From: Chitinophagaceae bacterium
Lineage (GTDB): Bacteria > Bacteroidota > Bacteroidia > Chitinophagales > Chitinophagaceae
Reading direction: 5' to 3'
NCBI GenBank assembly: GCA_947457465.1
Contig: CANGWB010000006.1
Coordinates: 1 to 64,000, forward strand
DNA length: 64,000 nucleotides
Shown here: positions 515 to 57,112 of the stretch, in pieces
How the letters are laid out: every line of letters starts with the position of its first letter
Position numbering within the stretch: position 1 is the first letter of the stretch
Notes under the pieces: model-generated
Databases searched by the model: none
Seen by the model: only the letters and a program-made list of their open reading frames with translations
Told to the model about the DNA's origin: nothing
Translations under genes and position numbers: made by a program

Positions 515-658
515 CAGTTTAGAGAGTTTAGAAGGTTTTGGGTTGAGGAGGTTGAGTGGCCTGTCTAAACTTACTAAACTTATCATCCATCAACCATCTC
601 ATCTTTCACCCTTCACCCTTCATCCTTCACCTTTCATCCTTCATCTCTCAACCTTCAA
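515..658. repeat. Element A: composite heptamer/nonamer inverted-repeat element
   Basis: The purine-rich left arm contains AGTTTAGAGAGTTTAGA (517-533). It is answered by TCTAAACTTACTAAACTT (564-581), whose reverse complement matches it at about 15 of 17 positions. From about 583 to 658 the plus strand is pyrimidine-rich. On the minus strand it reads as about nine degenerate 7-mers of the form G(A/G/T)TGAAR, such as GTTGAAG, GATGAAA and GGTGAAG. It lies between the susE terminator and the esterase gene. It shares architecture with the elements at 10251, 22516, 28714, 50744, 51515 and 57037. I see no open reading frame of substance in it. Confidence 0.75.
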
Positions 659-659
659 C

Positions 660-689
660 AAAAAAGGCGGCTTTTCAGCCGCCTTTTTT
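660..689 (-). terminator. Rho-independent terminator of the susCDE operon
   Basis: A perfect 12-base stem AAAAAAGGCGGC / GCCGCCTTTTTT with a six-base loop begins 19 bases after the susE stop codon. Read on the minus strand it is a GC-rich stem followed by six T. The flanking A-run makes it potentially bidirectional. Confidence 0.92.
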
Positions 690-707
690 CAATATGTATC
701 AGATCGA

Positions 708-1778
708 TTAATTACGACGGATGCTATAAGCATAGTTTCCGGCGATTCCCAGATCGAGGGTGATGGTGTAATTACCCGCAGTAGTAATAGGAATATTGTT
801 GCCGCCGTACTCAGGCTTTCCATCAGCAGGGTCGTTGTCGCCAAAGTTGATGGGCCAGTCATTGTTGGCACGGAACTTCATCTCGCCCGCCGTCAGGTTG
901 GTGGTGATGATGTATACATTCTGAGCGATGTCATAAGTCATTGCAGTGCTGGCACCCCATCCACCAGGAGTAGCACTACCAACGATACCCCACGTATCGA
1001 TCTTGGTGTTGGACCAAGTCATGTTGGACGTATTGGCCGTGATGCGATACACGCCGGCGCCTTGGCCGAGGGTGAGGTTGGCACCACCAGGACCGAGGTT
1101 GCTACCACCGTAGTTACCGAAATCACCGAATGACCAATCCGGCCCCTTCACCATCTTGAATTCAGGTGTAGCATTGTTGAAGTAGATATAGCCATCGTAA
1201 TTGCTTCCGGTGGTACCACTGGCAAAACGATCGACGATCTTCGGTGCAGTAGAAGGTGACCAACCCTGAAAGTTACCGGCAATGAACAGGGCTTGTGGGA
1301 AGCTGTAGTTCACGATGTCACGGTATGAGGTAACCGTCATGCTCAACACATTCGAATAAATAGGCGCTACGCCAGATCCTACATCAGCTTTGATACGAGC
1401 CTGGACCTGTGTAGCTGCACCATTGGCGATAATGTCTTGCATTCTAGCATTGAAATCCTTCACAGTGAAAGTCCTCGACAACTGCGTGTTAATATTGATA
1501 CTGGTAGAAGTAGCTGTAGCGAAATTGGTTCCTCCTCTACAGAGCTCCAGCGTGTAGTTGATTCCGGCATCGAAACCGAAATCAGCCTTGGTCCAGCTGA
1601 ACGAAACAGCATTGTTATCCTGATTCGCTTGCGCCAGCACCAACGTAGTTGTAGTGGCCGATAAGGTCACTGCACCCTTGGGTGCCAATACGGCACGCGT
1701 CTCTTCTTTTTTACAGGCTGCGAGGGTAAGCATCGCTCCACCGATCAGCAGCCAGGTGAGTTTTTGAATGTTTTTCAT
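708..1778 (-). CDS. susE: SusE-like starch-binding outer-membrane lipoprotein
   Basis: 356 residues. A lipobox (LTLAAC, cysteine 22) marks a lipoprotein, expected on the cell surface. The N-terminal part (about 35-155) looks like the SusE immunoglobulin-like domain. Two carbohydrate-binding modules of the SusE/SusF kind follow: one starting FIAGNFQGWSP near 165, the second starting WGIVGSATPGGWG near 262, each rich in Trp and Gly. It is the third gene of susC-susD-susE with a 30-base gap after susD and is closed by the terminator at 660-689. In the known starch system SusE holds malto-oligosaccharides for SusCD. No SusF is present, so the two modules here may be the only accessory binding sites. 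The glucan specificity is inferred from the neighbouring GH13 gene. Confidence 0.85.
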   Translation of the reverse strand: MKNIQKLTWLLIGGAMLTLAACKKEETRAVLAPKGAVTLSATTTTLVLAQANQDNNAVSFSWTKADFGFDAGINYTLELCRGGTNFATATSTSININTQLSRTFTVKDFNARMQDIIANGAATQVQARIKADVGSGVAPIYSNVLSMTVTSYRDIVNYSFPQALFIAGNFQGWSPSTAPKIVDRFASGTTGSNYDGYIYFNNATPEFKMVKGPDWSFGDFGNYGGSNLGPGGANLTLGQGAGVYRITANTSNMTWSNTKIDTWGIVGSATPGGWGASTAMTYDIAQNVYIITTNLTAGEMKFRANNDWPINFGDNDPADGKPEYGGNNIPITTAGNYTITLDLGIAGNYAYSIRRN

Positions 1779-1808
1779 ATAAACAGTATTGCGGTTTGAA
1801 TAGATCGA

Positions 1809-3392
1809 TTAATAACCGGGATTTTGAACAAGGTTGGGGTTTGCCACCAAGTCAGCAGAAGGAATGGGGAACAACTTGCGGGTGTTCGCAACAGAACGAC
1901 CCGCCTGAATACCACCTTTCCAAGCCCAGAGGTAAGTACCTTCCGTGAACTGTCCGTAGCGGATCAGGTCGGTACGACGAACTGCTTCCCAATACAACTC
2001 ACGAGCACGCTCATCCAACAGGTACGGAACAGTCAACTGCGCTGAGTTGATGTTTCCAGATGCATTTCCGTATGCACGAGTGCGCAATGCATTAACATAG
2101 TTCAATGCAGTAGTGATATTTCCACCGGCACCACCACGCAGAGTGGCTTCGGCATAGTTGAGATAAACTTCGGCGAGACGGAAAATGGGGAAATCCGTAT
2201 CCACCCAAGTTGGGTTGGAACCGTTTGCTCCTGTAGATGTCTTGTTGCGGAATTTGATCACCGCATACCCATTGGTGAATTCAGAGATGTCATTGATCTC
2301 GAGGCTCTGTCCATTGGTGTAGAAGTTGCGACGACTATCCAATACATCAGGCAATTTAGCAACAAACTCTTTTGTCGTACGGAGACCACCCCATCCGAAA
2401 TCAAGTCCGTGGTCAGAAGCTTGCATAGAACCCCCCACGGGCGCATGGCAGAGGAAGGTTGTTCCACCCCATGTGCGTGACTTCATTCCATCAAAGTTCA
2501 CCGCGAAAATGAATTCTCCGGCACCGGTAGTATGGTTATCCGCCAGGAACAGGTTGCGATAATTACCAGCCAGTGTATAACCGGTTACCGCAGTCACCTT
2601 GTTACAGTACGTGATGCAATCACCAAACTTGGCAGTACCTGTGTACACTTCCGCGTTCAGATAGAGACGGCTGAGCAGGGCCCAAGCAGCTGCTTTGTCG
2701 GCACGACCATACTCATTGGAACGAGCATCTTTCAGTTCTGTCTCGATCGCCTTCAGTTCCGTTTCGATGTACGTGAACAAGGCCGTACGGCTGGTCTGGT
2801 TTGGCAAGAAGGCACCCACGTTGTCGTTTTCTGTTACGAAGGGTACGCTTCCAAACAGATCCAATGCATGGTAGTAGCTGAGGGCACGGAGGAACCGAGC
2901 CTCTGCACGCATGTACCCGATCTCAGTGGCATCCGCTCCGGAGATGTTGCGCTCAGATAGTTTTGACGGAGCACTCTCACGGATGAATTCATTGGCCAGG
3001 GTGATCTGGAAGTAGATGCGGCTATAGAGCGCGCGGATGAATACGTCCGCCGGACTCCATGACATATTGTGAAAATCCTTGATGGTGGCATCGTTCCAGC
3101 CGATCACCGCTTCGTCAGTAGTCAACTCCTGCGCTGACCAGTACTGGCGGATGTAGCTGGAGAATCCTTCATCGATACCGGCGATGTCGCCTTGACCGTC
3201 AGGACCACTATTACCGGTCAATGTTAAACCGGCATAAACTTTAGCCAGCACCTGACGGTAGCCGTCGAGGTTCACATATAGAGAGGCCGCGGTGTTGCCG
3301 TATTTCGGCTTGCGGTCCAGGTCTTTGGTACAGGCTACGAAACTCACTACTGTGATCATCGAAAGCCCCAACCATGTTAATGTCTTACGCAT
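1809..3392 (-). CDS. susD: SusD/RagB-family nutrient-binding lipoprotein
   Basis: 527 residues, a normal SusD length. The lipobox FVAC (cysteine 21) follows a short hydrophobic segment. The helical repeat core shows the usual SusD features: a YMRAEARFLRA helix, the DFPIFRLAEVYLNYAEA stretch, and a C-terminus ending LFPIP...NPNLVQNPGY, typical of the family. SusD proteins form the lid over a SusC transporter and bind the glycan. It starts 26 bases after the susC stop and ends 30 bases before susE, so the three are surely one operon. Alpha-glucan as ligand is inferred from SusE and the amylase next door. Confidence 0.93.
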   Translation of the reverse strand: MRKTLTWLGLSMITVVSFVACTKDLDRKPKYGNTAASLYVNLDGYRQVLAKVYAGLTLTGNSGPDGQGDIAGIDEGFSSYIRQYWSAQELTTDEAVIGWNDATIKDFHNMSWSPADVFIRALYSRIYFQITLANEFIRESAPSKLSERNISGADATEIGYMRAEARFLRALSYYHALDLFGSVPFVTENDNVGAFLPNQTSRTALFTYIETELKAIETELKDARSNEYGRADKAAAWALLSRLYLNAEVYTGTAKFGDCITYCNKVTAVTGYTLAGNYRNLFLADNHTTGAGEFIFAVNFDGMKSRTWGGTTFLCHAPVGGSMQASDHGLDFGWGGLRTTKEFVAKLPDVLDSRRNFYTNGQSLEINDISEFTNGYAVIKFRNKTSTGANGSNPTWVDTDFPIFRLAEVYLNYAEATLRGGAGGNITTALNYVNALRTRAYGNASGNINSAQLTVPYLLDERARELYWEAVRRTDLIRYGQFTEGTYLWAWKGGIQAGRSVANTRKLFPIPSADLVANPNLVQNPGY

Positions 3393-3418
3393 ATTATTTC
3401 TTTTGATGGTTTTTCAGA

Positions 3419-6418
3419 TTAGAACTCTACGTTGAAGCCCAACGTGAAAATACGGGGGCGGGGATAGAAATTGTTGTCGATACCGCCGGCGATCTCGGGA
3501 TCCAATCCCTGATACTTGGTGATCACAAAAGCATTCTGCACACTCGCATTGGCGCGCAGGCTGGAAATGCCTTTCAGTACACTTCCGAAATCGTATCCGA
3601 TGGTGAAGTTATCCATTCGAACGAAGGAAGCATTGTCAACATAGTAGTCAGAGAAGTACTGAGGAACAACAAATCCCGTTTCGAGGTAATTTCTGTGCAC
3701 ATTGCCCAAGAATCCACCCACGCCAGGGAATGCCTGCTGCAAATTGCCCGCACCGGAGAACATATTATTATACATGTAGTTCCCGATATTGGCGCGGAGC
3801 ACCGTAGATGCACTCCACTTGCCATAAGAAGCAGAGGTAGTGAATCCGATGATCCAGTTCGGCTCAGGCGACTGATAACGATAGTAGTCGAGGTTGTTGA
3901 TCAAACCGTCTTTATTTCTATCAACATACAAACCTTCAACAGGTTTACCGCTTTGGTCATAAGCCTGCTGCAGCACAAAGAAAGAAGAGGGACGATAGCC
4001 TACAGACTGGATTTGAATGGTATTACCAACTCCACCGGAGATACCGCCGGTAGCGACACCGATGAAGGTTGGGTCATCAACTTTGGTAAGTCGGGTGATC
4101 TCGTTTGTGTTGTAGGTAACGTTGAAACCAAGGTCCCAAGTGAATTTGTTTGCTTTAACCACATTAGCATTAATCTGCAATTCCACACCGCGGTTAGTCA
4201 TGTCACCAACGTTGGTAAAAATGCGGTTGGTGAAGTTGGTACCGGCAGGTACATCAATAAAGCTCAGCAGGTCACGGGTATCCTTGAAATAGTAATCCAA
4301 GCTACCGCTTACCCGACCGTTCCCAAAGCCGAAGTCGATACCGGCATTATAGGTTGTGGTCGTTTCCCACTTGATGTTCGCATCATATCCAACCGGACGC
4401 TGAACAGGGAAGAAAGCATTTCCGAACTGATACTGTGCAGTCTGAGTACCCAATGTGTAATTGGCGATGTAGGCATAGTCGTTGCCTATCTCTTGCTGAC
4501 CGGTAGTACCATAGCCCAAACGCAACTTCAGGTTAGAGATTAACTTGCTGTTCTTCAGGAATGATTCTTCCGAGATATTCCAGGCGAAAGCCGCAGAAGG
4601 GAAGATTCCCCAGCGCTGATCAGGACTGAAGCGGGAAGAACCATCGCGACGGATACTGGCTGTCAACAAATATTTGCCGTTAGAGGTAAGGTTCGCACGG
4701 CCATAGAAAGAAACCAATGTATTCTGGGTGAAGAAGGGGAACGGTGCTGCAGGCGCAAACTCTCTTCCGTCTGCACGAAAGTCCGCGAAGTTGGTCGACT
4801 TGCGAACGAAATCCTGATAACCGTATCCAGCCATGGCTTCAAGGCGACCTTTGATAGCCTTGATATCACGCGTGTAGTTCAGGTAGAAATCGAGCAGTTT
4901 GTTAGTCTTGGTGTTGTCATATTGATTATTGACACCACCACGGATATAAGCAGCCGCTGCAGAGTCAGGAACATAAACGGTTCCCTCGCCCTTCGCATGG
5001 TCGATACCCACATTCAAGTTGGCGCGCAATCCGGCCACCTGTGGGATCGTATAATTCAGCTGAAGGTTGGAGATATAACGATTAACCTGGCTTTTATCTT
5101 CAAAGCCACGACCCGGCTCCGTCAATACATATTTTTCACGGATGTTGAGGAAGGCCAAAGGATTCTTGGGAGCCAAACCATTAGGCTGGTTGTTGTTAGC
5201 CAACCATTCCCAATAGCCACCAAAGCGCATGTCTCCACTGCGGAAAGGCGTTTGAGTGGGGTCGAAGAAAGCGGCACCACTGATCGCACCCTGATTAGCG
5301 AAGTTGTTGTTGGTAATGCTGGTTTTCAAATTGAAGTCAACCTTCAGGTTGTTATTCAGAAAACTGGGGTTGATGTTCAAACTCGTTGAAACACGACGCA
5401 TGTTGTCTGATTTCAGGATACCATCCTGATTGAGATAGCCGAGTGAGAAACGGTAAGGAAGTTTATCGATGCCGCCGGTCAGGGAGATGGTATTGTCAGT
5501 CATCAGTGCTCCACGGTAGACCATATCCTGCCAGTCAGTTTTGGCAGGCCCCAACAAAGAGCGTTGAGTGGCATTTCCCTTGGAGTTGACAAGCGAGCGA
5601 TATTCATCAGCATTTAACACATCGACTGTATTGCCAACGAGTGAGAGCGAGTTTTGGGAAGAGAATCCAACCTTCAACTTGCCGGATTTACCTTTTTTGG
5701 TTGTGATCAGGATTACACCGTTAGTAGCACGGTTTCCATAGATCGCGGTAGCCGATGCGTCCTTCAGAACGGTGAAAGTCTCAATGTCATTGGGGTTGAT
5801 CAAGTTCAGGGGATTCGGTGATCCGGAGATACCACCCTGCTGATCGATGGGCACCCCGTCGATAATGATCAACGGGTCATTGCTACCGGAGAGAGAGGAT
5901 GTACCACGTACACGGATACGTCCACCTGCACCAGGGGCACCACTGGGGGCGGTGATCTGTACACCAGCCACTTTACCATTGATCAATTGTTCAGGAGAGG
6001 TAAGAGGCCCTTTAGCAAAATCCTTCACCCCTACTGTTGCAACGGCACCGGTCAGGTCTTTCTTACGGGCACTGCCGTAACCTACCAATACAACTTCACC
6101 CAGGTCGCCAGCGGCAGCCTCAAGAGTAACTTGCACTTGATCAGATCCTTCGATCGATACTACCTGAGTGGCGTATCCGACGGAAGAAATGCTGAGGGAT
6201 TTGTCTGCAGCTGTAACATTGATCTTGAAAGATCCGGAGGCATCCGTTTGTGTGCCTCGCTTAGAGGAAGAAGCTGTTACCGAAGCACCGGAGAGCCCGT
6301 TGCCGGAACGTGAATCCAGGACTTTACCGGAGATCGTTCGGTCCTGAGCGAATACCCATTGCGCAGCCAATAAGCCTACGCACAACAGGCACGCCTGAAG
6401 CGATTTTTTCAATGACAT
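3419..6418 (-). CDS. susC: SusC/RagA-family TonB-dependent outer-membrane transporter
   Basis: 999 residues. A signal peptide ends near WVFAQ (25). Next comes a carboxypeptidase-regulatory-like domain (about 28-100, TISGKVLDSRSGNGLSGA). The TonB box and plug follow, with the family signature LGEVVLVGYGSARKKDLTGAV-like segment near 108-128. The rest is a 22-strand-type barrel ending in the aromatic C-terminus FTLGFNVEF. It imports oligosaccharides using TonB energy together with SusD. A 154-base gap separates it from the upstream regulator gene. That gap holds a palindrome at 6451-6464 and a near-match to the -7 element (TAATATTG on the minus strand, 6476-6483), so susCDE probably has its own regulated promoter. 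Confidence 0.95.
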   Translation of the reverse strand: MSLKKSLQACLLCVGLLAAQWVFAQDRTISGKVLDSRSGNGLSGASVTASSSKRGTQTDASGSFKINVTAADKSLSISSVGYATQVVSIEGSDQVQVTLEAAAGDLGEVVLVGYGSARKKDLTGAVATVGVKDFAKGPLTSPEQLINGKVAGVQITAPSGAPGAGGRIRVRGTSSLSGSNDPLIIIDGVPIDQQGGISGSPNPLNLINPNDIETFTVLKDASATAIYGNRATNGVILITTKKGKSGKLKVGFSSQNSLSLVGNTVDVLNADEYRSLVNSKGNATQRSLLGPAKTDWQDMVYRGALMTDNTISLTGGIDKLPYRFSLGYLNQDGILKSDNMRRVSTSLNINPSFLNNNLKVDFNLKTSITNNNFANQGAISGAAFFDPTQTPFRSGDMRFGGYWEWLANNNQPNGLAPKNPLAFLNIREKYVLTEPGRGFEDKSQVNRYISNLQLNYTIPQVAGLRANLNVGIDHAKGEGTVYVPDSAAAAYIRGGVNNQYDNTKTNKLLDFYLNYTRDIKAIKGRLEAMAGYGYQDFVRKSTNFADFRADGREFAPAAPFPFFTQNTLVSFYGRANLTSNGKYLLTASIRRDGSSRFSPDQRWGIFPSAAFAWNISEESFLKNSKLISNLKLRLGYGTTGQQEIGNDYAYIANYTLGTQTAQYQFGNAFFPVQRPVGYDANIKWETTTTYNAGIDFGFGNGRVSGSLDYYFKDTRDLLSFIDVPAGTNFTNRIFTNVGDMTNRGVELQINANVVKANKFTWDLGFNVTYNTNEITRLTKVDDPTFIGVATGGISGGVGNTIQIQSVGYRPSSFFVLQQAYDQSGKPVEGLYVDRNKDGLINNLDYYRYQSPEPNWIIGFTTSASYGKWSASTVLRANIGNYMYNNMFSGAGNLQQAFPGVGGFLGNVHRNYLETGFVVPQYFSDYYVDNASFVRMDNFTIGYDFGSVLKGISSLRANASVQNAFVITKYQGLDPEIAGGIDNNFYPRPRIFTLGFNVEF

Positions 6419-6450
6419 GACAATCAGTTTTTGTTGGTTTAATGCCTATG

Positions 6451-6464
6451 CACATACATATGTG
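6451..6464. promoter_or_regulatory. Palindrome in the susC leader, candidate operator
   Basis: CACATACATATGTG has perfect 6-base arms around a 2-base centre. It lies about 33 bases before the susC start and just downstream of a one-mismatch -7 box (TAATATTG, 6476-6483 on the minus strand). The gene directly upstream encodes a Nudix-like regulator, so this is a reasonable site for it. No second copy was found in the window, so the link is inference. Confidence 0.35.
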
Positions 6465-6572
6465 TACAGACGACACAATATTAATGCAATTTTAATAAGA
6501 AGACTGAAAAAAAGTAAAATCCTTTTGTGTAAGAGAAAGTCGGCTCAACCCCCCCAAATGACTCTACAATTG

Positions 6573-7262: not shown

Positions 7263-7278
7263 GAAAGCAGTCGTTCGG

Positions 7279-10250: not shown

Positions 10251-10329
10251 AAGACGAAAAGACCAAAAACAAGCAGCCCGGAAAACAATCACAACCTATT
10301 GACTCCTGGTCTACTGGTCTTTTCGTCTT
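10251..10329. repeat. Element B: 15-base perfect inverted repeat with octamer substructure
   Basis: AAGACGAAAAGACCA (10251-10265) is matched exactly by its reverse complement at 10315-10329, with a 49-base loop. Both arms show an 8-base period: on the minus strand the right arm reads GACGAAAA, GACCAGTA, GACCAGGA. It sits between the divergent amylase and ligA genes. Purines are on the left arm and pyrimidines on the right, as in the other elements of this window. Confidence 0.75.
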
Positions 10330-21503: not shown

Positions 21504-21926
21504 ATGTCAGACCCAAATAAAGAAGCCAGACGTGTCGTTGAACACATGATGCAACACGATCGATTCTCAAAATGGTTGGGGATCGAGGTGCTGGACATCA
21601 AAGCCGGAGAAAGTTGCATTCGAATGAAGGTGCGCGAAGAAATGGTGAATGGCTTCGGGATTGCTCACGGAGGGGTTGCTTTTTCACTGGCCGACAGTGC
21701 CTTTGCCTTTGCCTGCAACAACCGAAATCAACTCTCCGTGGCACTGGATACTTCCATCAATTTTACAAGAGAAGTGCGTGTAGGCGATACGCTCACGGCT
21801 ACTGCAAAAGAGGAGCATAATGGACGATCGACCGGTCTCTACACCATTCGCATCGTGAATCAGGACGAAAAATTAGTAGCGCAGTTCAAAGGTCTTTGCT
21901 ATCGCACCGATAAAAAAGTGATTTGA
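21504..21926 (+). CDS. paaI: PaaI hotdog thioesterase
   Basis: 140 residues. The hotdog-fold motif GFGIAHGGVAFSLADSAFAF carries the His-Gly-Gly and the acidic residue of the active site. PaaI hydrolyses dead-end CoA esters such as ring-hydroxylated phenylacetyl-CoA and frees CoA. It starts 6 bases after paaG, and its TGA overlaps the ATG of the next gene. Confidence 0.92.
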   Translation: MSDPNKEARRVVEHMMQHDRFSKWLGIEVLDIKAGESCIRMKVREEMVNGFGIAHGGVAFSLADSAFAFACNNRNQLSVALDTSINFTREVRVGDTLTATAKEEHNGRSTGLYTIRIVNQDEKLVAQFKGLCYRTDKKVI

Positions 21927-22513
21927 TGTTTTACGCATTCAACGGAAATAAACCCGTCGTGCATCCATCCGCATTTGTACATCCACAAGCGGTAGTAACA
22001 GGAGCCGTAACCATTGGCAAAGATTGCTATATCGGTCCGGGTGCAGCTCTGCGCGGCGACTGGGGCGAAATCATCCTGAAAGACGGATGCAATGTTCAGG
22101 AGAATTGCACCATTCATATGTTCCCGGGCGTAACGGTTATTCTTGAAGAAGGCGCGCACATCGGTCACGGTGCCATCATTCATGGTGCACATATCGGAAA
22201 GAATTGCCTGGTGGGAATGAATGCTGTAGTGATGGACAATGTAGAACTGGGCGATGAATGCATCGTTGGAGCACTCACGTTCATCAAAGAAGGAGAGAAA
22301 ATCCCGGCCCGTAGTATTGTGGTAGGTAATCCGGGTAAGATCATCAAAAAAGCAAGCAATCAACTCATCGAATGGAAAACCGAGGGCACCCGCCTGTATC
22401 AGGAACTCCCGAAAGCTTGTCACGATTCCCTGAAACCCTGCCGACCCCTACGAAAAGCCCCCGCGAAACGAAATTTTGATGAAGTGGGATACAAAAACCT
22501 GAAAAGAAGTTGA
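21926..22513 (+). CDS. paaY: PaaY-like hexapeptide-repeat thioesterase (gamma-carbonic-anhydrase family)
   Basis: 195 residues from the ATG at 21926 (TGATG overlap with paaI). The body is a left-handed beta-helix of hexapeptide repeats (about 10-150) with a C-terminal helix. Metal-binding histidines expected for the gamma-CA fold appear as HMFPG, HIGHGAIIHG and HIGKNC. In E. coli PaaY hydrolyses a 2-hydroxycyclohepta-dienylacetyl-CoA dead-end product. The stop lies directly before repeat element C, which may end the transcript. Confidence 0.87.
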   Translation: MFYAFNGNKPVVHPSAFVHPQAVVTGAVTIGKDCYIGPGAALRGDWGEIILKDGCNVQENCTIHMFPGVTVILEEGAHIGHGAIIHGAHIGKNCLVGMNAVVMDNVELGDECIVGALTFIKEGEKIPARSIVVGNPGKIIKKASNQLIEWKTEGTRLYQELPKACHDSLKPCRPLRKAPAKRNFDEVGYKNLKRS

Positions 22514-22515
22514 AA

Positions 22516-22563
22516 GTTGAAGGATGAAAGGTGAAATTCATCGTTCACCTTTCATCCTTCAAC
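22516..22563. repeat. Element C: 20-base perfect inverted repeat made of 7-mers
   Basis: Left arm GTTGAAGGATGAAAGGTGAA (22516-22535), loop of 8 bases, exact reverse complement at 22544-22563. The purine strand reads in frame as 7-mers GTTGAAA, GTTGAAG, GATGAAA, GGTGAAA from 22509. It begins at the paaY stop codon. The stem would be very stable in RNA but there is no T-run after it, so it is not a classical terminator. Confidence 0.88.
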
Positions 22564-22635
22564 TCTCCTAATGATTCTCATCAATAGAAACATCGAACTA
22601 TATTTCATAAATTAGCTTCATAAAGTAACCTGATC

Positions 22636-28713: not shown

Positions 28714-28778
28714 GTAGATGGTATAAGGTAGAAGGTTTAACGTTTAAGCTTTCTACCTTCTACTTTCTACCTTCTACC
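28714..28778. repeat. Element D: heptamer inverted-repeat element
   Basis: The left arm reads in consecutive 7-mers GTAGATG, GTATAAG, GTAGAAG, GTTTAAC, GTTTAAG. The right arm read on the minus strand is GTAGAAG, GTAGAAA, GTAGAAG, GTAGAAA, then GCTTAAAC. The arms pair imperfectly around a GTTTAA-type centre near 28735-28747. It fills the whole gap between the S46 peptidase and the epimerase, starting 2 bases after one stop and ending 2 bases before the next start. Confidence 0.85.
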
Positions 28779-37772: not shown

Positions 37773-37775
37773 CCA

Positions 37776-46378: not shown

Positions 46379-46448
46379 TTTGAGAAGGTAAAGTTAGCTG
46401 ATCAAGGGTTAAAATGATCTAAAAATGAGTTGAGGTATATTCGCGTTC

Positions 46449-50083: not shown

Positions 50084-50108
50084 GGGGATGAGGCGATTCG
50101 AATTGGGA

Positions 50109-50116
50109 CAAATTTA
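50109..50116 (-). promoter_or_regulatory. -7 promoter element of adk
   Basis: TAAATTTG on the minus strand, exact TAnnTTTG, 25 bases before the adk ATG. Confidence 0.55.
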
Positions 50117-50208
50117 TCGCACGCGCGCCGATTTTCCGAGAGAAAATATGGCCCATCCTTAACAAGTGTCAGTACGGATTTTCCGGGGAAATCCATGAAT
50201 TTTGTCGA

Positions 50209-50748
50209 GTGAGAAACCCCATCCTCCTGATTGCCGCAGTTTTTATGTCGTTGACAAGCATTCATTGCGGTGCCCAGTCCAACAATCGTTCAGCCACAAA
50301 ACCCGTCATGGAAAAAAAGAATCCCATCTATTCGCATACCGATTCCAACAAAGTGAACTTACCAGAGGAGGAGTGGAAGAAGATGTTACCGGCTGATGTG
50401 TTTTACATCGCGCGAATGAAAGGAACGGAGCGTCCCTGGACCAGTCCCTTCGAAAAGCACAAAGAGATCGGTACCTATTACTGTGCAGCTTGTGGCAATC
50501 CTTTATTCAAGAGCGATACGAAGTTTGAAAGCGGATGTGGCTGGCCGAGTTTTTACGAACCGCTTGGAAAAGGAAATATCATTTACACGCCGGATAACAG
50601 TCATGGTATGAGCCGCACCGAAGTGCAATGCGGTCGATGCAAAGCGCATCTGGGCCACGTATTCGATGATGGTCCGCCCCCCACCGGACTTCGCTATTGC
50701 ATCAATGGGGTGATATTGGATTTTAAGAAAGGGGATGGGAAGAAGTAG
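50209..50748 (+). CDS. msrB: Exported methionine-R-sulfoxide reductase MsrB (lipoprotein)
   Basis: 179 residues from a GTG start, the only start that keeps the signal (RNPILLIAAVFMSLTSIHC, lipobox cysteine 20). The MsrB domain covers about 50-175. It has two CxxC zinc pairs, CAAC and CGRC, the GCGWPSF segment and the catalytic cysteine in RYCINGVIL. It repairs methionine-R-sulfoxide, here in the cell envelope rather than cytosol. A near -7 box (GAATTTTG) ends 4 bases before the GTG. Repeat element E begins at its stop codon. Confidence 0.92.
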   Translation: MRNPILLIAAVFMSLTSIHCGAQSNNRSATKPVMEKKNPIYSHTDSNKVNLPEEEWKKMLPADVFYIARMKGTERPWTSPFEKHKEIGTYYCAACGNPLFKSDTKFESGCGWPSFYEPLGKGNIIYTPDNSHGMSRTEVQCGRCKAHLGHVFDDGPPPTGLRYCINGVILDFKKGDGKK

Positions 50749-50806
50749 AAGTTAGAAGGTTCATGGTTTAACCACATTCTACATTAAACTTTCTGCACTC
50801 TACGCT
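50744..50806. repeat. Element E: heptamer inverted-repeat element
   Basis: Left arm 7-mers AGTAGAA, GTTAGAA, GGTTCAT, GGTTTAA. The right arm read on the minus strand gives GTAGAGT, GCAGAAA, GTTTAAT, GTAGAAT. The centre again contains a GTTTAA motif. It fills the whole space between the convergent msrB and pspC genes and overlaps the msrB stop. Confidence 0.8.
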
Positions 50807-50807
50807 T

Positions 50808-51005: not shown

Positions 51006-51120
51006 AAAAAAAATTATCATTAAAGTTAACGTGAAATAGTTAATGAGTCACTAGCACCAATCAATAATTGGAGAATAAATAGTACATTTCATATTGACAT
51101 ACTCAAATACAATAAATACT

Positions 51121-51513
51121 ATGAATAAGATTTTTTTAGCCCTCCTATTGACAATTTCAATTCAAACCATACAAGCACAACGACTGATGGGGAGTAACCG
51201 ATCGACCGTGGGCTATATTGAGAATGGCCGGGTGATGAGTAGCTCGCGCAGTACCATCGGATACATCGATGACGGACGAGTCATGAACAGCTCGCGAAGC
51301 ACCATCGGTTACATAAACGATGGACGAGTTATGAATAGTTCGCGCGCCACCATCGGCTACATCGACGACGGCCGTGTGATGAATAGCTCACGTAGCACTA
51401 TCGGTTACATCGAAGATGGCCGTGTCCTGAACAGCTCCCGCAGCACCCTCGGATATTTCGAAGGCGTCCGCCGAATCGACGCGGCTTTATTTTTCTTCTT
51501 TTTCTTCTACTAA
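51121..51513 (+). CDS. Secreted five-repeat protein (5-fold beta-flower type) with poly-Phe tail
   Basis: 130 residues from the ATG at 51121, starting a signal peptide (MNKIFLALLLTISIQTIQAQ). Five complete 16-residue repeats follow with consensus RSTIGYIDDGRVMNSS, then a partial sixth ending LGYFEGVRR. Each unit should form a beta-hairpin, together closing a five-bladed ring. I recall this as the family called 5-fold beta-flower protein, whose role is unknown. The C-terminus is AALFFFFFFY, six Phe in a row, which could insert into or sit on a membrane. No partner gene is evident. Confidence 0.8.
   Translation: MNKIFLALLLTISIQTIQAQRLMGSNRSTVGYIENGRVMSSSRSTIGYIDDGRVMNSSRSTIGYINDGRVMNSSRATIGYIDDGRVMNSSRSTIGYIEDGRVLNSSRSTLGYFEGVRRIDAALFFFFFFY
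51199..51462 (+). repeat. 48-base tandem repeat inside the five-repeat gene
   Basis: Five full 48-base units start at 51199, 51247, 51295, 51343 and 51391, with a partial sixth from 51439. Protein copies are nearly identical but the DNA copies differ at many third codon positions. This suggests selection on the protein rather than recent duplication. Confidence 0.9.
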
Positions 51514-51514
51514 C

Positions 51515-51601
51515 GTAGAGTAGAAAGTAGAATGTGGAAGATTTAAGGCCCCTGCTAACCCTATAGTTTGTACATTCTACCATCCACCTTCTACCTTCTA
51601 C
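51515..51601. repeat. Element F: heptamer inverted-repeat element
   Basis: Left arm 7-mers after GTAGA: GTAGAAA, GTAGAAT, GTGGAAG, ATTTAAG. The right arm on the minus strand: GTAGAAG, GTAGAAG, GTGGATG, GTAGAAT, GTACAAA. The less regular loop (about 51547-51563) is GC-richer. It starts one base after the five-repeat gene stop and ends 20 bases before the aminotransferase. Confidence 0.85.
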
Positions 51602-51621
51602 TTTTCCATTAATTTCGCGCT

Positions 51622-52893
51622 ATGAAAGCGCCCAAACTCTCCCAGCTGGCTGAAACCCTGATCGGCTCCGAGATCGTCAAATTGGGCGCCGAGATCAAAG
51701 AGCGCATCCGTCAGGGTGCCAGGGTCTATAATTTCACCGTGGGCGACTTCGATCCATCCGTCTTCCCCATCCCTGCCGAACTCCAACAACTCATCGAAAA
51801 AGCCTACCAGGAAAAGCATACGAACTACCCGATGGCCGAAGGCAACATCGAACTGCGCCAGGGCCTGAAATCCTTCATTAAACACTACCAAGGGCTCGAC
51901 TATGAAATGTCTGAGATCCTGGTCGCCTCCGGTGGCCGTCCCCTCATTTACACCATCTTCCGAACCATCTGTGACGAAGGCGACCGCATCGTTTACGCCG
52001 TTCCCTCCTGGAACAACAACCATTACACGCATTTCGTAGAGGCAGAACATGTAGTACTCGAAGCGAAAGCGGAAAATAACTTCATGCCTACGGCGGCCGA
52101 ACTGAAACCGCACCTGGCCGGCGCCACCCTGCTGGCCCTCTGCTCCCCGCAAAATCCCACCGGCACCACCTTCAGAAAAGAAGAACTGGAAGCCATCTGC
52201 GACCTCGTCCTCGAAGAGAATGCCAAACGCGGCGACGAGCAGAAAAAACTCTACGTGATGTTCGACCAGATGTACTGGCACCTCACATATGGCGATATTG
52301 AGCACCACGACCCCGTATCGCTTCGTCCGGCCATGAAAGACTACACCATCTTTGTGGATGCGATCAGTAAAGTGTTCTCCTCAACTGGTCTTCGTGTGGG
52401 TTGGGGACTCGGTCCGGCACCTGTCATCGCCAAAATGAAATCCATCCTCACGCACATGGGCGCCTGGGCCCCGATGGCTGAACAAAAAGGATTGGCCGAC
52501 TACCTCAACGATTTTCCCTCCATCGACCGATACCTCAAGCATTTCAAATCAGAAGTCCTATTTCGACTGAACAGCATCCACGACGGTATCATAGCCCTCA
52601 AACAGGATGGATACCCCCTCGATGCCATCGCACCGGAAGCAGCCATCTATCTCACCGTCAAAGTCGATCTGAAAGGATGGAAGAAAGCTGACGGATCCGT
52701 TCTTGCGGAACAAAGTGACGTAACACATTTCCTATTGAACGAAGCATCACTGGCTCTCGTTCCCTTCTACGCATTCGGTAGCGATCGGGAAAACCCCTGG
52801 TATCGCCTCAGCGTAGGTACCTGTAAAAAAGAGGAGATCGGTGAAATGCTGGGTAAACTCCGTGCAGCGCTGGGAACCTTGATCAAACCCTGA
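51622..52893 (+). CDS. PLP-dependent aminotransferase, class I/II
   Basis: 423 residues. Fold-type I features: NYPMAEGNIELRQGL near 68-82, SGGRPLIYTIFRT, CSPQNPTGTTF, the FDQMYWHL segment with the PLP-ring Asp, and the Schiff-base lysine in DAISKVFSSTGLRVGWG. The Arg near the end (WYRLSVG) binds the substrate carboxylate. It resembles aspartate or aromatic aminotransferases, but the amino donor cannot be fixed. TAATTTCG, a one-mismatch -7 box, ends 4 bases before the ATG. The stop directly adjoins the convergent small gene. Confidence 0.9.
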   Translation: MKAPKLSQLAETLIGSEIVKLGAEIKERIRQGARVYNFTVGDFDPSVFPIPAELQQLIEKAYQEKHTNYPMAEGNIELRQGLKSFIKHYQGLDYEMSEILVASGGRPLIYTIFRTICDEGDRIVYAVPSWNNNHYTHFVEAEHVVLEAKAENNFMPTAAELKPHLAGATLLALCSPQNPTGTTFRKEELEAICDLVLEENAKRGDEQKKLYVMFDQMYWHLTYGDIEHHDPVSLRPAMKDYTIFVDAISKVFSSTGLRVGWGLGPAPVIAKMKSILTHMGAWAPMAEQKGLADYLNDFPSIDRYLKHFKSEVLFRLNSIHDGIIALKQDGYPLDAIAPEAAIYLTVKVDLKGWKKADGSVLAEQSDVTHFLLNEASLALVPFYAFGSDRENPWYRLSVGTCKKEEIGEMLGKLRAALGTLIKP

Positions 52894-53121
52894 TCAGTTC
52901 TTTCCGATGAGAAAACGAAAGGGTCGCAATTGATCGCGGCTGGCCTCTTGAAGAATCTTCTTGGGAGATAGTGTGATGTGATTACGATCGACCAGTTGAT
53001 ATGCGCGTGCAAAATCATCATCGCTTAACCGCTCCCGCAGCCATTGCGTCATCCGACGATGCTCCGTTGCCTGTGTGTCCCCAAAAAGGACGAGTAAATG
53101 ATGTTTCGACACGCGTTGCAT
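52894..53121 (-). CDS. Small conserved-looking protein of unknown function
   Basis: 75 residues from the ATG at 53121, two bases after the stop of a tiny lipoprotein gene. The sequence has an orderly hydrophobic/charged pattern (VSKHHLLVLFGDTQ, MTQWLRERLSDDDFARAYQLV, NHITLSPKKILQEASRDQLRPFRFLIGKN in two parts). This looks like a real alpha/beta protein rather than chance. The longer frame reaching 53157 starts inside the lipoprotein gene. It is probably co-transcribed with that gene. I do not recognise a family. Confidence 0.55.
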   Translation of the reverse strand: MQRVSKHHLLVLFGDTQATEHRRMTQWLRERLSDDDFARAYQLVDRNHITLSPKKILQEASRDQLRPFRFLIGKN

Positions 53122-53123
53122 GA

Positions 53124-53264
53124 TCAATATCCCGACATGCCCTTGTGGCTCGGGCAACCACAGTTTTTTCCGCCTTTACCGCCCCCCGAATAATAATTCC
53201 GGTTGCAGGCAAGCAATACTACGGAGAGAAAAACCACAAATATTGTTCTGTAGAAGATTCGCAT
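53124..53264 (-). CDS. Tiny Gly/Cys-rich lipoprotein (46 residues)
   Basis: An open frame of 46 codons starts at ATG 53264. It encodes a lipoprotein signal (MRIFYRTIFVVFLSVVLLAC, cysteine 20) and a short mature peptide with NYYSGGGKGGKNCGCPSH and KGMSGY. The mature part is about 27 residues with a Cys-x-Cys and His, which could bind metal. It is divergent from the glycosyltransferase gene, sharing a symmetrical 18-base promoter-like sequence at 53278-53295. The clean lipobox and the tight coupling to the next gene support a real gene. Function unknown. Confidence 0.68.
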   Translation of the reverse strand: MRIFYRTIFVVFLSVVLLACNRNYYSGGGKGGKNCGCPSHKGMSGY

Positions 53265-53277
53265 GGGATTCGGCTTT

Positions 53278-53295
53278 CAAAATAAAACTATTTTG
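53278..53295. promoter_or_regulatory. Symmetrical divergent promoter-like sequence
   Basis: CAAAATA-AAAC-TATTTTG has perfect 7-base arms. Each arm, read outwards, is TATTTTG, one base short of the TAnnTTTG element. It lies 13 bases before both divergent start codons (53264 and 53309), so it may drive both genes. Confidence 0.45.
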
Positions 53296-53308
53296 AGCAC
53301 AGTTTCGT

Positions 53309-54364
53309 ATGCCGCACGTTAAAAATAACAATTCAAGGAGGGTTTTGGTTGCCCCGCTCGACTGGGGACTGGGACATGCCACCCGGTGTATCCCCCTGAT
53401 CCGTCGCCTTCTGCGTGACGGCCATCAGATTTTCCTGGCCGGAAGCGGCCCATCCGGTCAATTACTCCGATCCGAATTCCCGGATCTGCCCTATTCCGAG
53501 ATCCCTTCCCATTCCGTCCGCTACGCCCGATCGGGACGAGGCTTATTCTGGATGATCCTCAAACAAATCCCAGCACTGAGCCAACAGATCCGTTCAGAGA
53601 AAAAATGGCTTAAAGAATTCATCAATACACAACCGATCGATCAGATCATATCTGATAATCGGTACGGACTCCATCACCACGGTACCCAAAATATTTTGAT
53701 CACGCATCAACTCGGATTGCGATCCGGCATCGGTAGCTGGGCCGATCAGGTGCTGCAATGGATGTTGATCCGGCTGCTGAAACGCTTTCACGAAATATGG
53801 GTTCCGGATCATGAAGATGAACCCAACTTCAGCGGCGAATTAGGTCACCCAAAATATAAACCACCGGTGCCCGTGAAATACATCGGTCCGCTAAGTCGGT
53901 TTACGCAGACAAACAGATGCTACACTCCAAAAAAGATCACGGTTGTTTTATCCGGACCCGAGCCACAACGAACACTGCTGGAAGAAAAATGCTTAGGCGA
54001 ATTGAATGATTGGGATGGTCCAGTGACGATCGTTAGAGGATTACCCAACGGCAGTAATACCCTACAAGCGCCTGCACATTGGAAAATATCAGATCATCTT
54101 TCAATCGATGCATTACAGCAAGAAATCGAAGAAGCGGAACATTTCATTTCGCGCTGTGGCTACAGCACGATCATGGATCTTGCTGTACTGAACAAAAAAG
54201 CAATATTGATTCCAACACCTGGTCAGCCCGAACAGGAGTATCTGGCGAGTCGGATGAAAGAACGATCACAGTATGTTATTATTGATCAACAACAAGATCT
54301 ACGCGAAGTAGTTGAAATAGCAAGCAGGAAGTCGGTAGCAGATGATAAATTTGCCGCCAGATGA
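53309..54364 (+). CDS. MurG-like glycosyltransferase (GT28 type)
   Basis: 351 residues. The N-terminal glycine loop VAPLDWGLGHATRCIPLIRRLL (15-36, read in two parts) matches the start of GT28 and related UDP-sugar transferases. The C-terminal half has the donor-side features VLSGPEPQRTLLE and the FISRCGYSTIMDLAVLNKKAILIPTPGQPEQEYLA region (also read in parts). It likely adds a sugar to a lipid or other acceptor in the cytoplasm. Its stop overlaps the start of a transporter gene by 4 bases (ATGA). Acceptor unknown. Confidence 0.82.
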   Translation: MPHVKNNNSRRVLVAPLDWGLGHATRCIPLIRRLLRDGHQIFLAGSGPSGQLLRSEFPDLPYSEIPSHSVRYARSGRGLFWMILKQIPALSQQIRSEKKWLKEFINTQPIDQIISDNRYGLHHHGTQNILITHQLGLRSGIGSWADQVLQWMLIRLLKRFHEIWVPDHEDEPNFSGELGHPKYKPPVPVKYIGPLSRFTQTNRCYTPKKITVVLSGPEPQRTLLEEKCLGELNDWDGPVTIVRGLPNGSNTLQAPAHWKISDHLSIDALQQEIEEAEHFISRCGYSTIMDLAVLNKKAILIPTPGQPEQEYLASRMKERSQYVIIDQQQDLREVVEIASRKSVADDKFAAR

Positions 54365-55248
54365 ATCCTCAATCCCGCGCCCACATCGGTGTACTGTTCA
54401 CCAATTTCTTTTTTGCGCTGAACCTGAGTCTGGTTCAATTCATCTCTCCCGAACCGTTAGGCCCTTATGGCGTAAATCTTTTTCGCGTTGGCGGGAGTCT
54501 GCTGCTGTTTTGGATGATGGCAAGCATCAATCGATCCGCCGAGGAAAAACCGATACGTAAGAAAGACTGGGGTCGACTCGCACTTTGCGGATTCACCGGC
54601 ATTTTTCTGAATCAGACGCTGTTCATCAAGGGACTAACGATGACCTCAACAATCCATGCAGCTCTCCTGATGCTAAGTACGCCGCTTTTGATCACCGGAC
54701 TGGCCGCTTTTCTACTCAGAGAAAAATTACGCTGGATTCAATTGGTCGGATTGATGTTGGGACTAACCGGTGCCACTATTTTAATCATGGATCGAACCGA
54801 CATGGGGGCTGATTCAATGGTAGGGGACGGACTCATCATCATCAACGCGATCTCCTACGCGATCTATTTCATCCTAGTGAAACCACTGATGCAATATTAT
54901 CCGCCTACGCAAGTGATCCGCTGGGTATTCACATTCGGCGCTATCGGTATCATCCCCTTCGGCATCCCACAAGCGCTGGACCTGCAAGAAAGCGGCATGC
55001 ATATGCAGGAAATTTTGGCACTCGGCACCGTTGTTATTTTCGGCACCTATTTTGCTTACCTGCTGAATATTCGAGGGATACAAGTATTGGGTGCCGGCAT
55101 CACCGGATCGTATATTTATTTTCAGCCCGTCTTTGCAACGATCATCGCGATCCTTTTTCTGAATGATCATCCCACGCCCGGAAAATTAGTGGCCGGGGGA
55201 CTCATATTTTTGGGCGTGTATTTGAATAGCAGAAGAAACTTCGCATGA
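54361..55248 (+). CDS. EamA/DMT-superfamily transporter
   Basis: 295 residues with ten predicted transmembrane helices in two EamA repeats (about 5-140 and 155-290). The first repeat includes GLTMTSTIHAALLMLSTPLL, and the second contains GAGITGSYIYFQPVFATIIA. These are the conserved helices of the drug/metabolite transporter family. It exports or imports a small metabolite; substrate unknown. It overlaps the glycosyltransferase stop and the next gene start by 4 bases each, giving a tight three-gene operon. Confidence 0.9.
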   Translation: MNPQSRAHIGVLFTNFFFALNLSLVQFISPEPLGPYGVNLFRVGGSLLLFWMMASINRSAEEKPIRKKDWGRLALCGFTGIFLNQTLFIKGLTMTSTIHAALLMLSTPLLITGLAAFLLREKLRWIQLVGLMLGLTGATILIMDRTDMGADSMVGDGLIIINAISYAIYFILVKPLMQYYPPTQVIRWVFTFGAIGIIPFGIPQALDLQESGMHMQEILALGTVVIFGTYFAYLLNIRGIQVLGAGITGSYIYFQPVFATIIAILFLNDHPTPGKLVAGGLIFLGVYLNSRRNFA

Positions 55249-55775
55249 ATAACAATCAATTCGATCTCAACGTTCATCCCTCATCCCTAAACAATAAGCG
55301 CCTCTTGCTCATGCGGCATGCGAAGACGGAGTCGCCATACACACTCAAACGCGACTTCGATCGGTTGCTAACCAAAACCGGCGAAGTCGATGCACAAAAA
55401 ATGGGGGACTGGCTAAAAAATCAGCAACTCTCTATCGATCAGATACTATCCAGTTCGGCGGAACGGACTAGGCAAACCGCCCTGATCGTAGCCGCTGCGA
55501 TCGGAATAGAAAACGCATCAATCGAATTCAAAGATGAACTCTATCATGCAACACCCGACGTGTTCTTTGATGTTATCCGCGGGGTGTCGAATACAGTGAA
55601 TACTTTAGTGATTGTTTCACATAACGACGGCATAACGCATTTTGCCAACCAACTCACCGATGCCCGCATCGATCATATGCAACCAGGATCGGTGTTTGTA
55701 ATTGAATGTGCAATCAATACTTGGAAGGAGTTCCACCAGGCCAAAAAAAATTTTTGCTATTACCGGCAACCTTAG
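55245..55775 (+). CDS. SixA-like histidine phosphatase
   Basis: 176 residues. Histidine-phosphatase motif LMRHAKTES (phosphohistidine His in RHA) near 22-30, the second Arg in SSAERTRQTA, and the second His in VSHNDGI. SixA-type enzymes dephosphorylate phosphohistidine or small phosphoesters. The first 17 residues before the core are variable, and a later start is possible. It overlaps the EamA gene by 4 bases and ends directly before the convergent M15-like gene. Confidence 0.87.
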   Translation: MNNNQFDLNVHPSSLNNKRLLLMRHAKTESPYTLKRDFDRLLTKTGEVDAQKMGDWLKNQQLSIDQILSSSAERTRQTALIVAAAIGIENASIEFKDELYHATPDVFFDVIRGVSNTVNTLVIVSHNDGITHFANQLTDARIDHMQPGSVFVIECAINTWKEFHQAKKNFCYYRQP

Positions 55776-56228
55776 CTACTCCCACCTTGCTCTGAATCCT
55801 CTGCAATCAATGTGGATCATCTGCTTGTTAAAGAAGCCACCTTTTTCTTTGTAGATACCCAAACCACCTTTATTGACGATGATCTCCTGATCTAATATTT
55901 TATATACTATATCCAAGTCTTTTCCATCGGACTTTCCATCGCGATTCACATCGTATACAATGAAATCAATGGCTTGCCCCTGTAAGTGAAGACTCTCCGA
56001 AGCCGCTCCATTAAAATACACCAGCAGATTATTCAGCCATTTATGTCGCTTGGTGCTGATCACCATCAAATTGGGTGAATAACCTCGCTTCCGAAGCGTC
56101 TCTTTTACTGTTTGATAACATTGAAGGACAGTTGGTTCGACCAAACGCGTATTATTCAAATACAAGAAAAACAACATCAACAACAAAAGCAGAAACACTA
56201 CAAACACATATAAAAATCTCCGGATCAT
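55776..56228 (-). CDS. Membrane-anchored M15/DUF882-type peptidase with a calcium-loop-like insert
   Basis: 150 residues. A single N-terminal membrane span (about 5-24) precedes the peptidase core. Zinc motif His81-x6-Asp88 in SLHLQGQAIDF and the C-terminal His-x-Asp in MIHIDCRGF match LAS-type D,D/L,D-carboxypeptidases acting on peptidoglycan stems. Between them lies DVNRDGKSDGKD (93-104), an exact DxNxDG calcium-loop pattern like dockerins. It follows the YiiX-like lipoprotein gene by 28 bases on the same strand, and both are cell-envelope enzymes. Confidence 0.83.
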   Translation of the reverse strand: MIRRFLYVFVVFLLLLLMLFFLYLNNTRLVEPTVLQCYQTVKETLRKRGYSPNLMVISTKRHKWLNNLLVYFNGAASESLHLQGQAIDFIVYDVNRDGKSDGKDLDIVYKILDQEIIVNKGGLGIYKEKGGFFNKQMIHIDCRGFRARWE

Positions 56229-56256
56229 GTACTAAAGAATACATAATGAAAATGCA

Positions 56257-56961
56257 TCAATTCACAGTCAAGATCGTCTTTAATTTATCGCTTTCAAAAA
56301 TCTTTCCGGGGGATATGGCTTTTTCATCTAATGGGATATCATCCCCGAATCGATCACGGAGTATCTTACGCGTCAATTCGCCGGACAGATCGAAATCGCT
56401 GAACAAATCCAACGAAGCCAGTTCGATTTGAGTAGCACGAGCATACACCTTCCAGACCAGTTCGGAGCAATAGATCCGATCGTCTGACCACTGAAATGTG
56501 AAATCGTATTTTTTCCCAATGTGTTTCTTGCCTTCTTTTTTCATTTGTTGTATCACAGCTGGAGTCAACACCATCTCTGCATTCTTGAGTCGCTTGGCTA
56601 CGTAATGCCTTCCATCTCCCTGACTGATCCACTTCTCTAATGGAGTGATGCGCACCGGCTGAACCGCCTCCAGCACAAAAGATTTACCACTATCCTGAAA
56701 AAATATTCCGCAATGAGAATACGGTGAACGCGTGGCTGCCTGTATGGCCGCTCCTTGGCCCGAACGCGATACCTGGAACAAAATATCACCCTCCTGCAGC
56801 TCCCCTCGCTTATCCTGCCCCACCTTCGATGGGCCGCTCTGCTTTTGCGCCGCAGAACGATCCGCGCATCCGGCGATCAACAACAAAATCACAACGGCGA
56901 CCACCACACCGAGAAAGCGCTGCAAATAACTTCCGAAATAATTGACTGATCTAACTGGCAT
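56257..56961 (-). CDS. YiiX/YebB-like permuted NlpC/P60 lipoprotein
   Basis: 234 residues from the ATG at 56961. The lipobox LIAGC lies near 33. The permuted papain-like fold shows GDILFQ (about 59), the catalytic His in SPYSHCGIFF and the catalytic Cys in IYCSELVWKVY. That is the reversed His-then-Cys order of the YaeF/YiiX group. Such proteins act as amidases or acyl hydrolases on lipids or peptidoglycan. It is upstream of the M15-like peptidase gene and downstream of repeat element G. Confidence 0.83.
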   Translation of the reverse strand: MPVRSVNYFGSYLQRFLGVVVAVVILLLIAGCADRSAAQKQSGPSKVGQDKRGELQEGDILFQVSRSGQGAAIQAATRSPYSHCGIFFQDSGKSFVLEAVQPVRITPLEKWISQGDGRHYVAKRLKNAEMVLTPAVIQQMKKEGKKHIGKKYDFTFQWSDDRIYCSELVWKVYARATQIELASLDLFSDFDLSGELTRKILRDRFGDDIPLDEKAISPGKIFESDKLKTILTVN

Positions 56962-57036
56962 ATGTGAATCTTCAACGAGCAAACAGGAGAGAAAATTGTA
57001 AAGAAAAATTTAAATCTCTACGCTACTAGGAATATA

Positions 57037-57112
57037 GTTTGAAAATGAAAGATTGGGATTTGGGTTAGTTGTTTAAACAAACTTCCATATTCAATCCTCT
57101 ATCTTCCTACTC
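57037..57112. repeat. Element G: divergent heptamer inverted-repeat element
   Basis: The left purine-rich arm (GTTTGAA, AATGAAA, GATTGGG, ATTTGGG) and the right pyrimidine arm (on the minus strand GTAGGAA, GATAGAG, GATTGAA, TATGGAA, GTTTGTT) meet at the palindrome GTTTAAAC (57071-57078). Pairing away from the centre is weak, so this may be an old, decayed copy. It lies just after the purF stop. Confidence 0.6.

Follow-up and report, generated by a model that had tools for sequence, protein, structure and literature searches.

Intergenic G-first palindromes of 7- and 9-base repeats keep their sites while their units change in a Chitinophagaceae bacterium and its relatives

Seven intergenic sites in a 64,000-nucleotide stretch of DNA from a Chitinophagaceae bacterium (contig CANGWB010000006.1, positions 1 to 64,000; hereafter the window) carry runs of short degenerate repeats followed by their inverted complement, and they raise the question of how one architecture comes to be written in different letters and what it might do between genes. 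What we observe is a tandem array of 7- or 9-base units, G-rich and nearly free of C, followed by a C-rich inverted array. It belongs to a real and strongly non-random family of elements that extends far beyond the window. A preliminary description, made from the window's letters alone, had proposed one form with differing units that are mostly not copies of one mobile sequence; this is borne out by orthologous sites, which keep arrays while the units change, and by unrelated heptamers in other genomes of the wider group. These patterns suggest that shape matters more than sequence. We favor, at a probability of roughly 0.45, bidirectional gene-end hairpins that may act in 3′-end formation or insulation and may be renewed by slippage and exchange between sites. 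Any role in transcription is putative, and a number of findings argue against a simple terminator.

The genome that contains the window (as contig C6; G000) comprises 2,063,312 bases in 46 contigs. Intergenic statistics were drawn from 847 kb of its DNA and from 390 kb and 480 kb of two relatives, G007 and G023, whose orthologous proteins have median identities of 86% and 85% to those of G000; genes were called with a simple custom hexamer script rather than a standard caller, a caveat on all gene-based counts. The motif (GNWGAAR)x3 occurs 90 times in G000 and its reversed control 3 times. When intergenic DNA was matched to itself (at least 14 in 18) at lags of 2–30, G000 gave 80 matches at lag 7 and 18 at lag 9, compared with 1.4 and 1.0 in a control of five first-order Markov copies. 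Lag 8 gave 3, and the remaining lags below 14 gave 0 or 1. G007 showed 41, 7 and 5 matches at lags 7, 9 and 8, and G023 showed 20 at lag 7, 18 at lag 9, 4 at lag 11 and 2 at lag 8. The preliminary description had staked its case on enrichment over shuffled sequence and on further elements in the genome or its relatives; both are found, in the motif and lag-7 counts of G000 and in the arrays of the relatives. Periods of 7, 9 and 11 occur, while 8 or 10 hardly do; past a gene end in G023 (locus L307) lies an 11-base repeat (GTTGAACNATG-like) where relatives hold 7- and 9-mers.

The same period is present in more distant sequences. In 357 intergenic segments from 80 loci of an S46 peptidase gene, lag 7 gave 32 matches and lag 9 gave 4; lags 3–6, 8 and 10–12 gave none. 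With a stricter setting, 14 period-7 arrays remained, spread over 9 of the 80 loci; their units are unrelated (for example GTAATAA, GTGAATA, ATGAGTA and TTTGGAA). Judged by this peptidase, the organism sits close to Chitinophagaceae: the ten best homologues among the 80 loci kept are 74–78% identical, and their titles name Chitinophagaceae, Bacteroidetes or Bacteroidota, Terrimonas ferruginea and one 'Sphingomonadales'. Other loci of the genus, sampled as 120 segments, gave 5, 2 and 1 matches at lags 7, 8 and 6; 150 kb of E. coli K-12 gave none at lags 2–17. Since the lag-7 excess recurs across genomes with unrelated units, the common trait is the period and not the sequence.

Units are characteristic of the genome in which they are found. 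The commonest 7-mers are GRTGAAR, GATGAGR and GTAGAAR in G000, GRTGAAG in G007 and GTTTAGN in G023; the commonest 9-mers are GTTGAGRRA and GTTTAGANA in G000, GTTTGANNA in G007 and GTTTGGNNA in G023. Each of the 14 commonest 7-mers of G000 contains TGA or TAG when read round, and several units lack GGG (GTAGAAA, GATGAGA, GATGAAA, GTTTAGAAA). Within 35 genomes of the genus, including G000 with its 90 occurrences, (GNWGAAR)x3 is found 114 times in G007, twice in G012, once in G023 and in none of the other 31. It is present in 71 of 395 genomes sampled across the phylum, and the rich genomes whose places were listed each have their own units: GGTGAAA in G355 and G218, GCAGAAG in G098 and in the listed places of G376, and GTAGAAG, GCAGAAG and GGAGAAG in G427. 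In three genomes from outside the family (G098, G427 and G218), 17 of 19 loci have a single array and two (L295 and L297) have two; the only close pair is at L295, where the second array has a different unit. In G355, a member of the window's family, six loci were read: L070 and L304 each carry a pair of arrays of opposite strand, and the other four a single array. As a side observation, arrays of G023 (for example at L152) consist of GTTTAGG units, which read round give TTTAGGG, the telomere heptamer of plants. G-first palindromes also resemble telomeres fused head to head, a likeness that is probably due to chance.

Arrays were detected by period alone and then assigned to a strand from G versus C. 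Where arrays on opposite strands are neighbors in the three genomes, the G-rich array comes first in 41 of 42 cases and the C-rich array in one. A strict inverted-repeat scan (15 in a 463-kb sample) was replaced by a scan that tolerates transitions, in which 39 of 99 inverted repeats have a 7- or 9-base period; 37 of these have a G-rich 5′ arm and 0 a C-rich one. Arms are about 22–30 bp long and built of tandem heptamers. C accounts for 1%, 2% and 4% of G-strand bases in G000, G007 and G023, a scarcity that is in part an effect of detection, since mixed units (for example GGACATT and GCGGACT) are discarded when strands are assigned. The arm order initially described, purine-rich and then its complement, is better given as G-rich and nearly C-free first, in part as a consequence of that strand rule. 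A translation stop in three frames, which units that hold TGA or TAG and have a length that is not a multiple of 3 could provide, was considered as the cause of the G-first order and dropped because the order persists clear of stop codons (16/17) and between divergent genes (5/5).

Arms also fit their own partners. In 40 elements with arrays picked independently of pairing, the mean pairing percentile of the own partner arm relative to within-genome swaps is 0.79 (p = 3e-8). This bears on an origin of the palindromes as scars, in which a telomerase- or terminal-transferase-like activity adds G-rich sequence to both 3′ ends of a break that are later joined. Such additions would yield G-first, C-second palindromes directly, and both the arm order and the near absence of C on the G strand agree with it. 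Independent additions, however, would not give arms that fit their own partner more closely than expected by chance, and relatives carry arrays at the same sites; we regard such scars as very unlikely (no such enzyme was sought).

Orthologous intergenic regions tend to agree in whether they hold an array. Among the regions available for comparison, G000 and G007 both have arrays in 12, one only in 3 and 1, and neither in 60 (p = 2e-10). The corresponding counts are 7, 6, 5 and 80 for G000 and G023 (p = 7e-5) and 2, 3, 0 and 33 for G007 and G023 (p = 0.014). Some of the 12 regions shared by G000 and G007 are shared places for repeats and not matching hairpins; of their discordant regions, the one without other repeats in the partner, 46379–46448, is empty in G000. 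After the window's S46 peptidase gene (site D, 28714–28778), the three nearest relatives carry G-first 7-mer repeats in other letters: the unit is GTAGAAG in G000, GTAGAGG in G007, GTTTAGG in G023 and GTAGAGA in G451, whose contig ends inside the C arm. The downstream gene was confirmed as the same gene in G007 only. Two further convergent sites of G000 hold repeats with other units in G451 and G023, and one of them does so in G007 as well.

Two side observations concern places of this kind. Read by eye, loci L156, L159, L174 and L177, from other species of the genus, have other inverted repeats after the S46 gene (ACAGATTACACAG, ACAGAG, CACGAA and CACTAAG types), possibly the same phenomenon with longer units; repeats of these types occur in many other bacteria. 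At 37773–37775 of the window, 3 bp separate two genes in G000, and the matching spacers of 152 bp in G023 and 124 bp in G007 contain GGACATT- or GCGGACA-like repeats.

Sites that stay while letters change invite two further explanations. The arrays could be binding sites of a protein that reads the repeat and whose specificity shifts between species, all sites of a genome following. Genome-specific units common to many sites within a genome, and the retention of the same sites, are consistent with this, but the coexistence of several unit families and two periods in one genome sits uneasily with a single reader, and no candidate protein was sought; we think it quite unlikely. Alternatively, a dedicated process might measure unit length (7, 9, perhaps 11) and rebuild G-first palindromes at fixed sites, giving each species its own vocabulary while the site map stays. 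This we hold to be unlikely.

Whole hairpins do appear to be copied on occasion, as indicated by one G007 subfamily with a similar loop at five places in both orientations, and the claim that the elements are not mobile copies, while sound in general, does not cover this subfamily. Copying of whole elements as a general rule in G000 was considered and dropped, because element loci share 13-mers outside the arrays no more than control loci do (9/78 versus 34/326). The same holds in G007 (3/32 versus 40/170), and sharing is higher at element loci in G023 (10/28 versus 39/211). These counts also argue, for G000 and G007, against repetitive extragenic palindromic (REP) sequences moved by a RAYT transposase, a reading that could account for intergenic palindromes, for the one-loop subfamily and for the GTAG in one unit type. 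The RAYT family PF01797, present in 16 of 39 genomes of the genus, has no match in G000, G007, G023 or G451, and of the explanations considered this is the least likely.

Arrays lie close to gene ends. The median distance from array edge to stop codon is 2 nt (63% of 144 within 10 nt), compared with 37 nt to the start codon (26% of 128). In intergenic regions of at least 40 bp from G000, G007 and G023, arrays occur in 27 of 73 regions between convergent genes, 81 of 423 between tandem genes and 21 of 205 between divergent genes (convergent versus the rest, p = 8e-5; divergent versus tandem, p = 0.004). Of the stop codons that fall within arrays, 56 are on the G strand and 7 on the C strand, a bias that follows in part from the units because the usual G-strand units hold TGA or TAG. 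Canonical terminators, called by a simple scan that misses some hairpins, are rarer in array regions with a gene end (14/107 versus 89/350, p = 0.008), and in convergent regions they accompany an array in 3/27 cases versus 21/42 (p = 0.0015).

Much of this distribution could also result from neutral or selfish simple-sequence DNA, generated by heptamer slippage and fold-back copying and surviving only where it does little damage, by stop codons and away from promoters. Arrays can arise at stop codons because a tandem duplication that includes the stop leaves the protein unchanged, and the strand bias of stops inside arrays and the poverty of divergent regions fit such tolerance. So do the partnerless, single-orientation heptamer arrays of distant Bacteroidota (19 loci in 3 genomes) and relatives that manage without the element or a canonical terminator. 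A compact genome should lose such spacers, yet 12 of 16 array sites are common to G000 and G007, and three of the other four hold other repeats in the partner. Tolerance also leaves unexplained the G-first order between divergent genes and the better pairing of arms with their own partners. Gene-end repeats that are neutral and simply tolerated form the chief alternative, with a substantial though less than even chance of being correct.

The reading we favor, a hairpin at the gene end, draws on position, region-class bias, G-first symmetry, retention at the same sites and the rarity of canonical terminators. The palindromic form means that transcription from either direction would meet a G arm first and a C arm last, and in RNA the arms would pair mainly with each other, since an arm without C (or without G) cannot form G-C pairs with itself. 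The resulting hairpin would mark or protect the 3′ end and hinder read-through in both directions. Tandem units would allow slippage to lengthen the arms and match them again, and exchange between sites would spread new units. The letters would then drift genome-wide while selection on the folded form would keep the element. Protection of mRNA 3′ ends or a transcription boundary, roles suggested when the sites were first described, fit the stop-codon position and the convergent bias; such a function is putative.

A number of results weigh against this reading. With the present detector, 96 of 138 array regions have one orientation only, and single arrays show no clear sense bias (30 versus 24 in tandem regions). 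The 60 inverted repeats without a 7- or 9-base period also lean G-first (38 versus 13), and the own partner is the single best among swaps in only 3 of 40 elements. Mismatches of the G-U versus A-C kind are compatible with the sense RNA in 36 cases and not in 23 (p = 0.12), which is no proof of constraint at the RNA level. The terminator contrast is confounded with spacer length. It is strong only in convergent spacers of 45–90 bp (0/18 versus 13/22), in which an array leaves little room, and it is significant in G000 only (p = 0.014, compared with 0.55 in G007 and 0.40 in G023). By our custom gene calls, 171 of 242 convergent pairs are less than 45 bp apart and have no array, which means that genes in this arrangement do not as a rule require one. 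At site D, the two genes are adjacent or overlapping in less close relatives, an operon-like arrangement (read by eye) to which a full terminator would do harm. Other species of the genus that lack the array at two convergent sites have a canonical terminator there in only 7/27 and 2/26 cases. The idea that the elements replace canonical terminators is weakened by the length strata, the single-genome tests and the relatives.

If form and place are indeed kept while letters change, such elements cannot be found by sequence conservation and will be missed by family libraries. They provide a natural experiment on the preference of bacteria for repeats of seven bases, and they may be one way of ending genes where there are few canonical terminators.

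Within the window, each site was tested against 200 dinucleotide-preserving shuffles (smallest possible p, 0.005); no strand is assigned to the sites. Period and inverted repeat are both nominally significant at six of the seven, so that the seven paired sites of the preliminary description are reduced by one, with another weak. The motif (GNWGAAR)x2, with one mismatch allowed, has 33 matches in the window, compared with a mean of 4.2 and a maximum of 10 in 100 shuffles, and no Rfam model matches within the window at its gathering score. The 8- or 9-mers reported in two cases are confirmed at sites B and A. Site A (515–658) has a 9-mer G arm, GTTTAGAGA GTTTAGAAG, and a C-rich 9-mer partner at 565–582, which is the part in which pairing is detected; a long C-rich 7-mer run at 599–657 lacks a partner of equal length (lag 7, p = 0.005; lag 9, p = 0.01; inverted repeat, p = 0.01). 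A hairpin of the ordinary intrinsic-terminator-like type follows at 660–689. Site B (10251–10329), between divergently called genes, has an 8-base period and a perfect 15-bp inverted repeat (p = 0.005 for each); a 7-base period is absent (p = 0.12, 200 shuffles), and the site falls outside the 7/9-mer rule. A possible relative of it, with a GACCAGAAGACC-like arm, lies at G000:C1:182217-182315.

Site C (22509–22567) is a GTTGAAG/GATGAAA/GGTGAAA hairpin that begins within the TGA stop of the upstream gene at 21926–22513, and its period and a perfect 20-bp inverted repeat each gave p = 0.005 (tested at 22509–22563). Site D, a GTAGAAG-type hairpin, fills the spacer from the S46 peptidase stop (28712) to a called GTG start (28780), with p = 0.005 for period and for inverted repeat. 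The degenerate GTAGAAG-type element at site E (50744–50806) has the period (lag 7, p = 0.005) without a significant inverted repeat (p = 0.14, 200 shuffles). At site F (51515–51604), preceded by a stop at 51511–51513, a GTAGAAR arm, a loop and a C-rich partner arm gave p = 0.005 in both tests (at 51515–51601). Site G (57037–57112), weak and degenerate, adjoins the stop of a minus-strand gene at 57113–58960, and its values (lag 7, p = 0.02; inverted repeat, p = 0.045) are uncorrected for seven sites. Just upstream of site F, 51121–51513 encodes a small predicted protein with a 16-residue repeat (NSSRSTIGYIDDGRVM) in five to six copies, encoded by a 48-bp tandem repeat, and a C-terminal run of F. 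Beside the C arm at 51601–51622, and in several other right flanks, are sequences such as TATATTCGCG or TAATTTCGCG, which resemble the Bacteroidota -7 promoter box, TAnnTTTG.

Several known systems share features with these elements. The short tandemly repeated repetitive (STRR) heptamers of cyanobacteria are intergenic, and we know of no description of them as paired hairpins. CRISPR arrays consist of identical repeats of about 20–50 bp with unique spacers, unlike the direct tandem units of 7–9 bases without spacers found here. The G+C-rich hairpin and T run of a canonical intrinsic terminator were found in only the 14 of 107 array regions noted above. REP elements of the GTAG and CGTC families are small intergenic palindromes, often downstream of genes, with stems of 5–13 bp and proposed roles in termination and mRNA stability, and the GTAG family is linked to RAYT (PMC3733652, in its available text). 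The present elements are likewise intergenic palindromes at gene ends but lack a GTAG or CGTC tag beside a short stem-loop, GTAG occurring only inside one unit type. Their separation from REP and CRISPR, as first proposed, holds up; the impression of a form without precedent does not.

As far as the available portions of the literature indicate, the closest case seen is that of inverted GGGAATC heptamers in Xanthomonas (Rehm et al. 2015, PMC4692102). These are mostly intergenic, with inverted pairs near stop codons and few between divergent genes; in 70 and 75 cases, two arrays lie on opposite strands in convergent orientation, and two related genomes retain them between the same genes although their length and sequence vary much. 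Transcripts start or stop more often at quadruplex-capable than at control repeats, and the authors leave the role open while favoring a look at G-quadruplexes. The elements described here share the 7-base intergenic units, with a 9-base period in addition, and the convergent array pairs on opposite strands, here nearly always G-first where both arrays occur, even though most array regions have a single orientation. In contrast to the one unit per lineage in Xanthomonas and in Nostoc (GGGGA(C/T)T, same paper), units here change from site to site and from one close relative to the next, and sites that correspond are written in different units. GGGAATC or quadruplex-capable G tracts are not a feature of the common units; as units here often lack GGG, a quadruplex is not the common cause, and the idea proposed for Xanthomonas need not be general.

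TAACTGA direct repeats, reported from Beggiatoaceae, some Cyanobacteria and five Bacteroidetes, are also intergenic heptamer arrays (MacGregor 2015, PMC4679880, in the portion available). They lie just before start codons, with one inverted case in the main genome and with related heptamers rarely repeated, unlike the inverted pairs after stop codons and the many units seen here. The same paper, citing Mrazek et al. 2007, gives heptanucleotides as the commonest long repeats in most genomes studied there. In the one library searched, we found no account of such elements in Bacteroidota beyond these five Bacteroidetes and no papers matching any of six exact repeat strings. Intergenic heptamer repeats are already known as a kind; what is new is the retention of place and form alongside units that differ from species to species.

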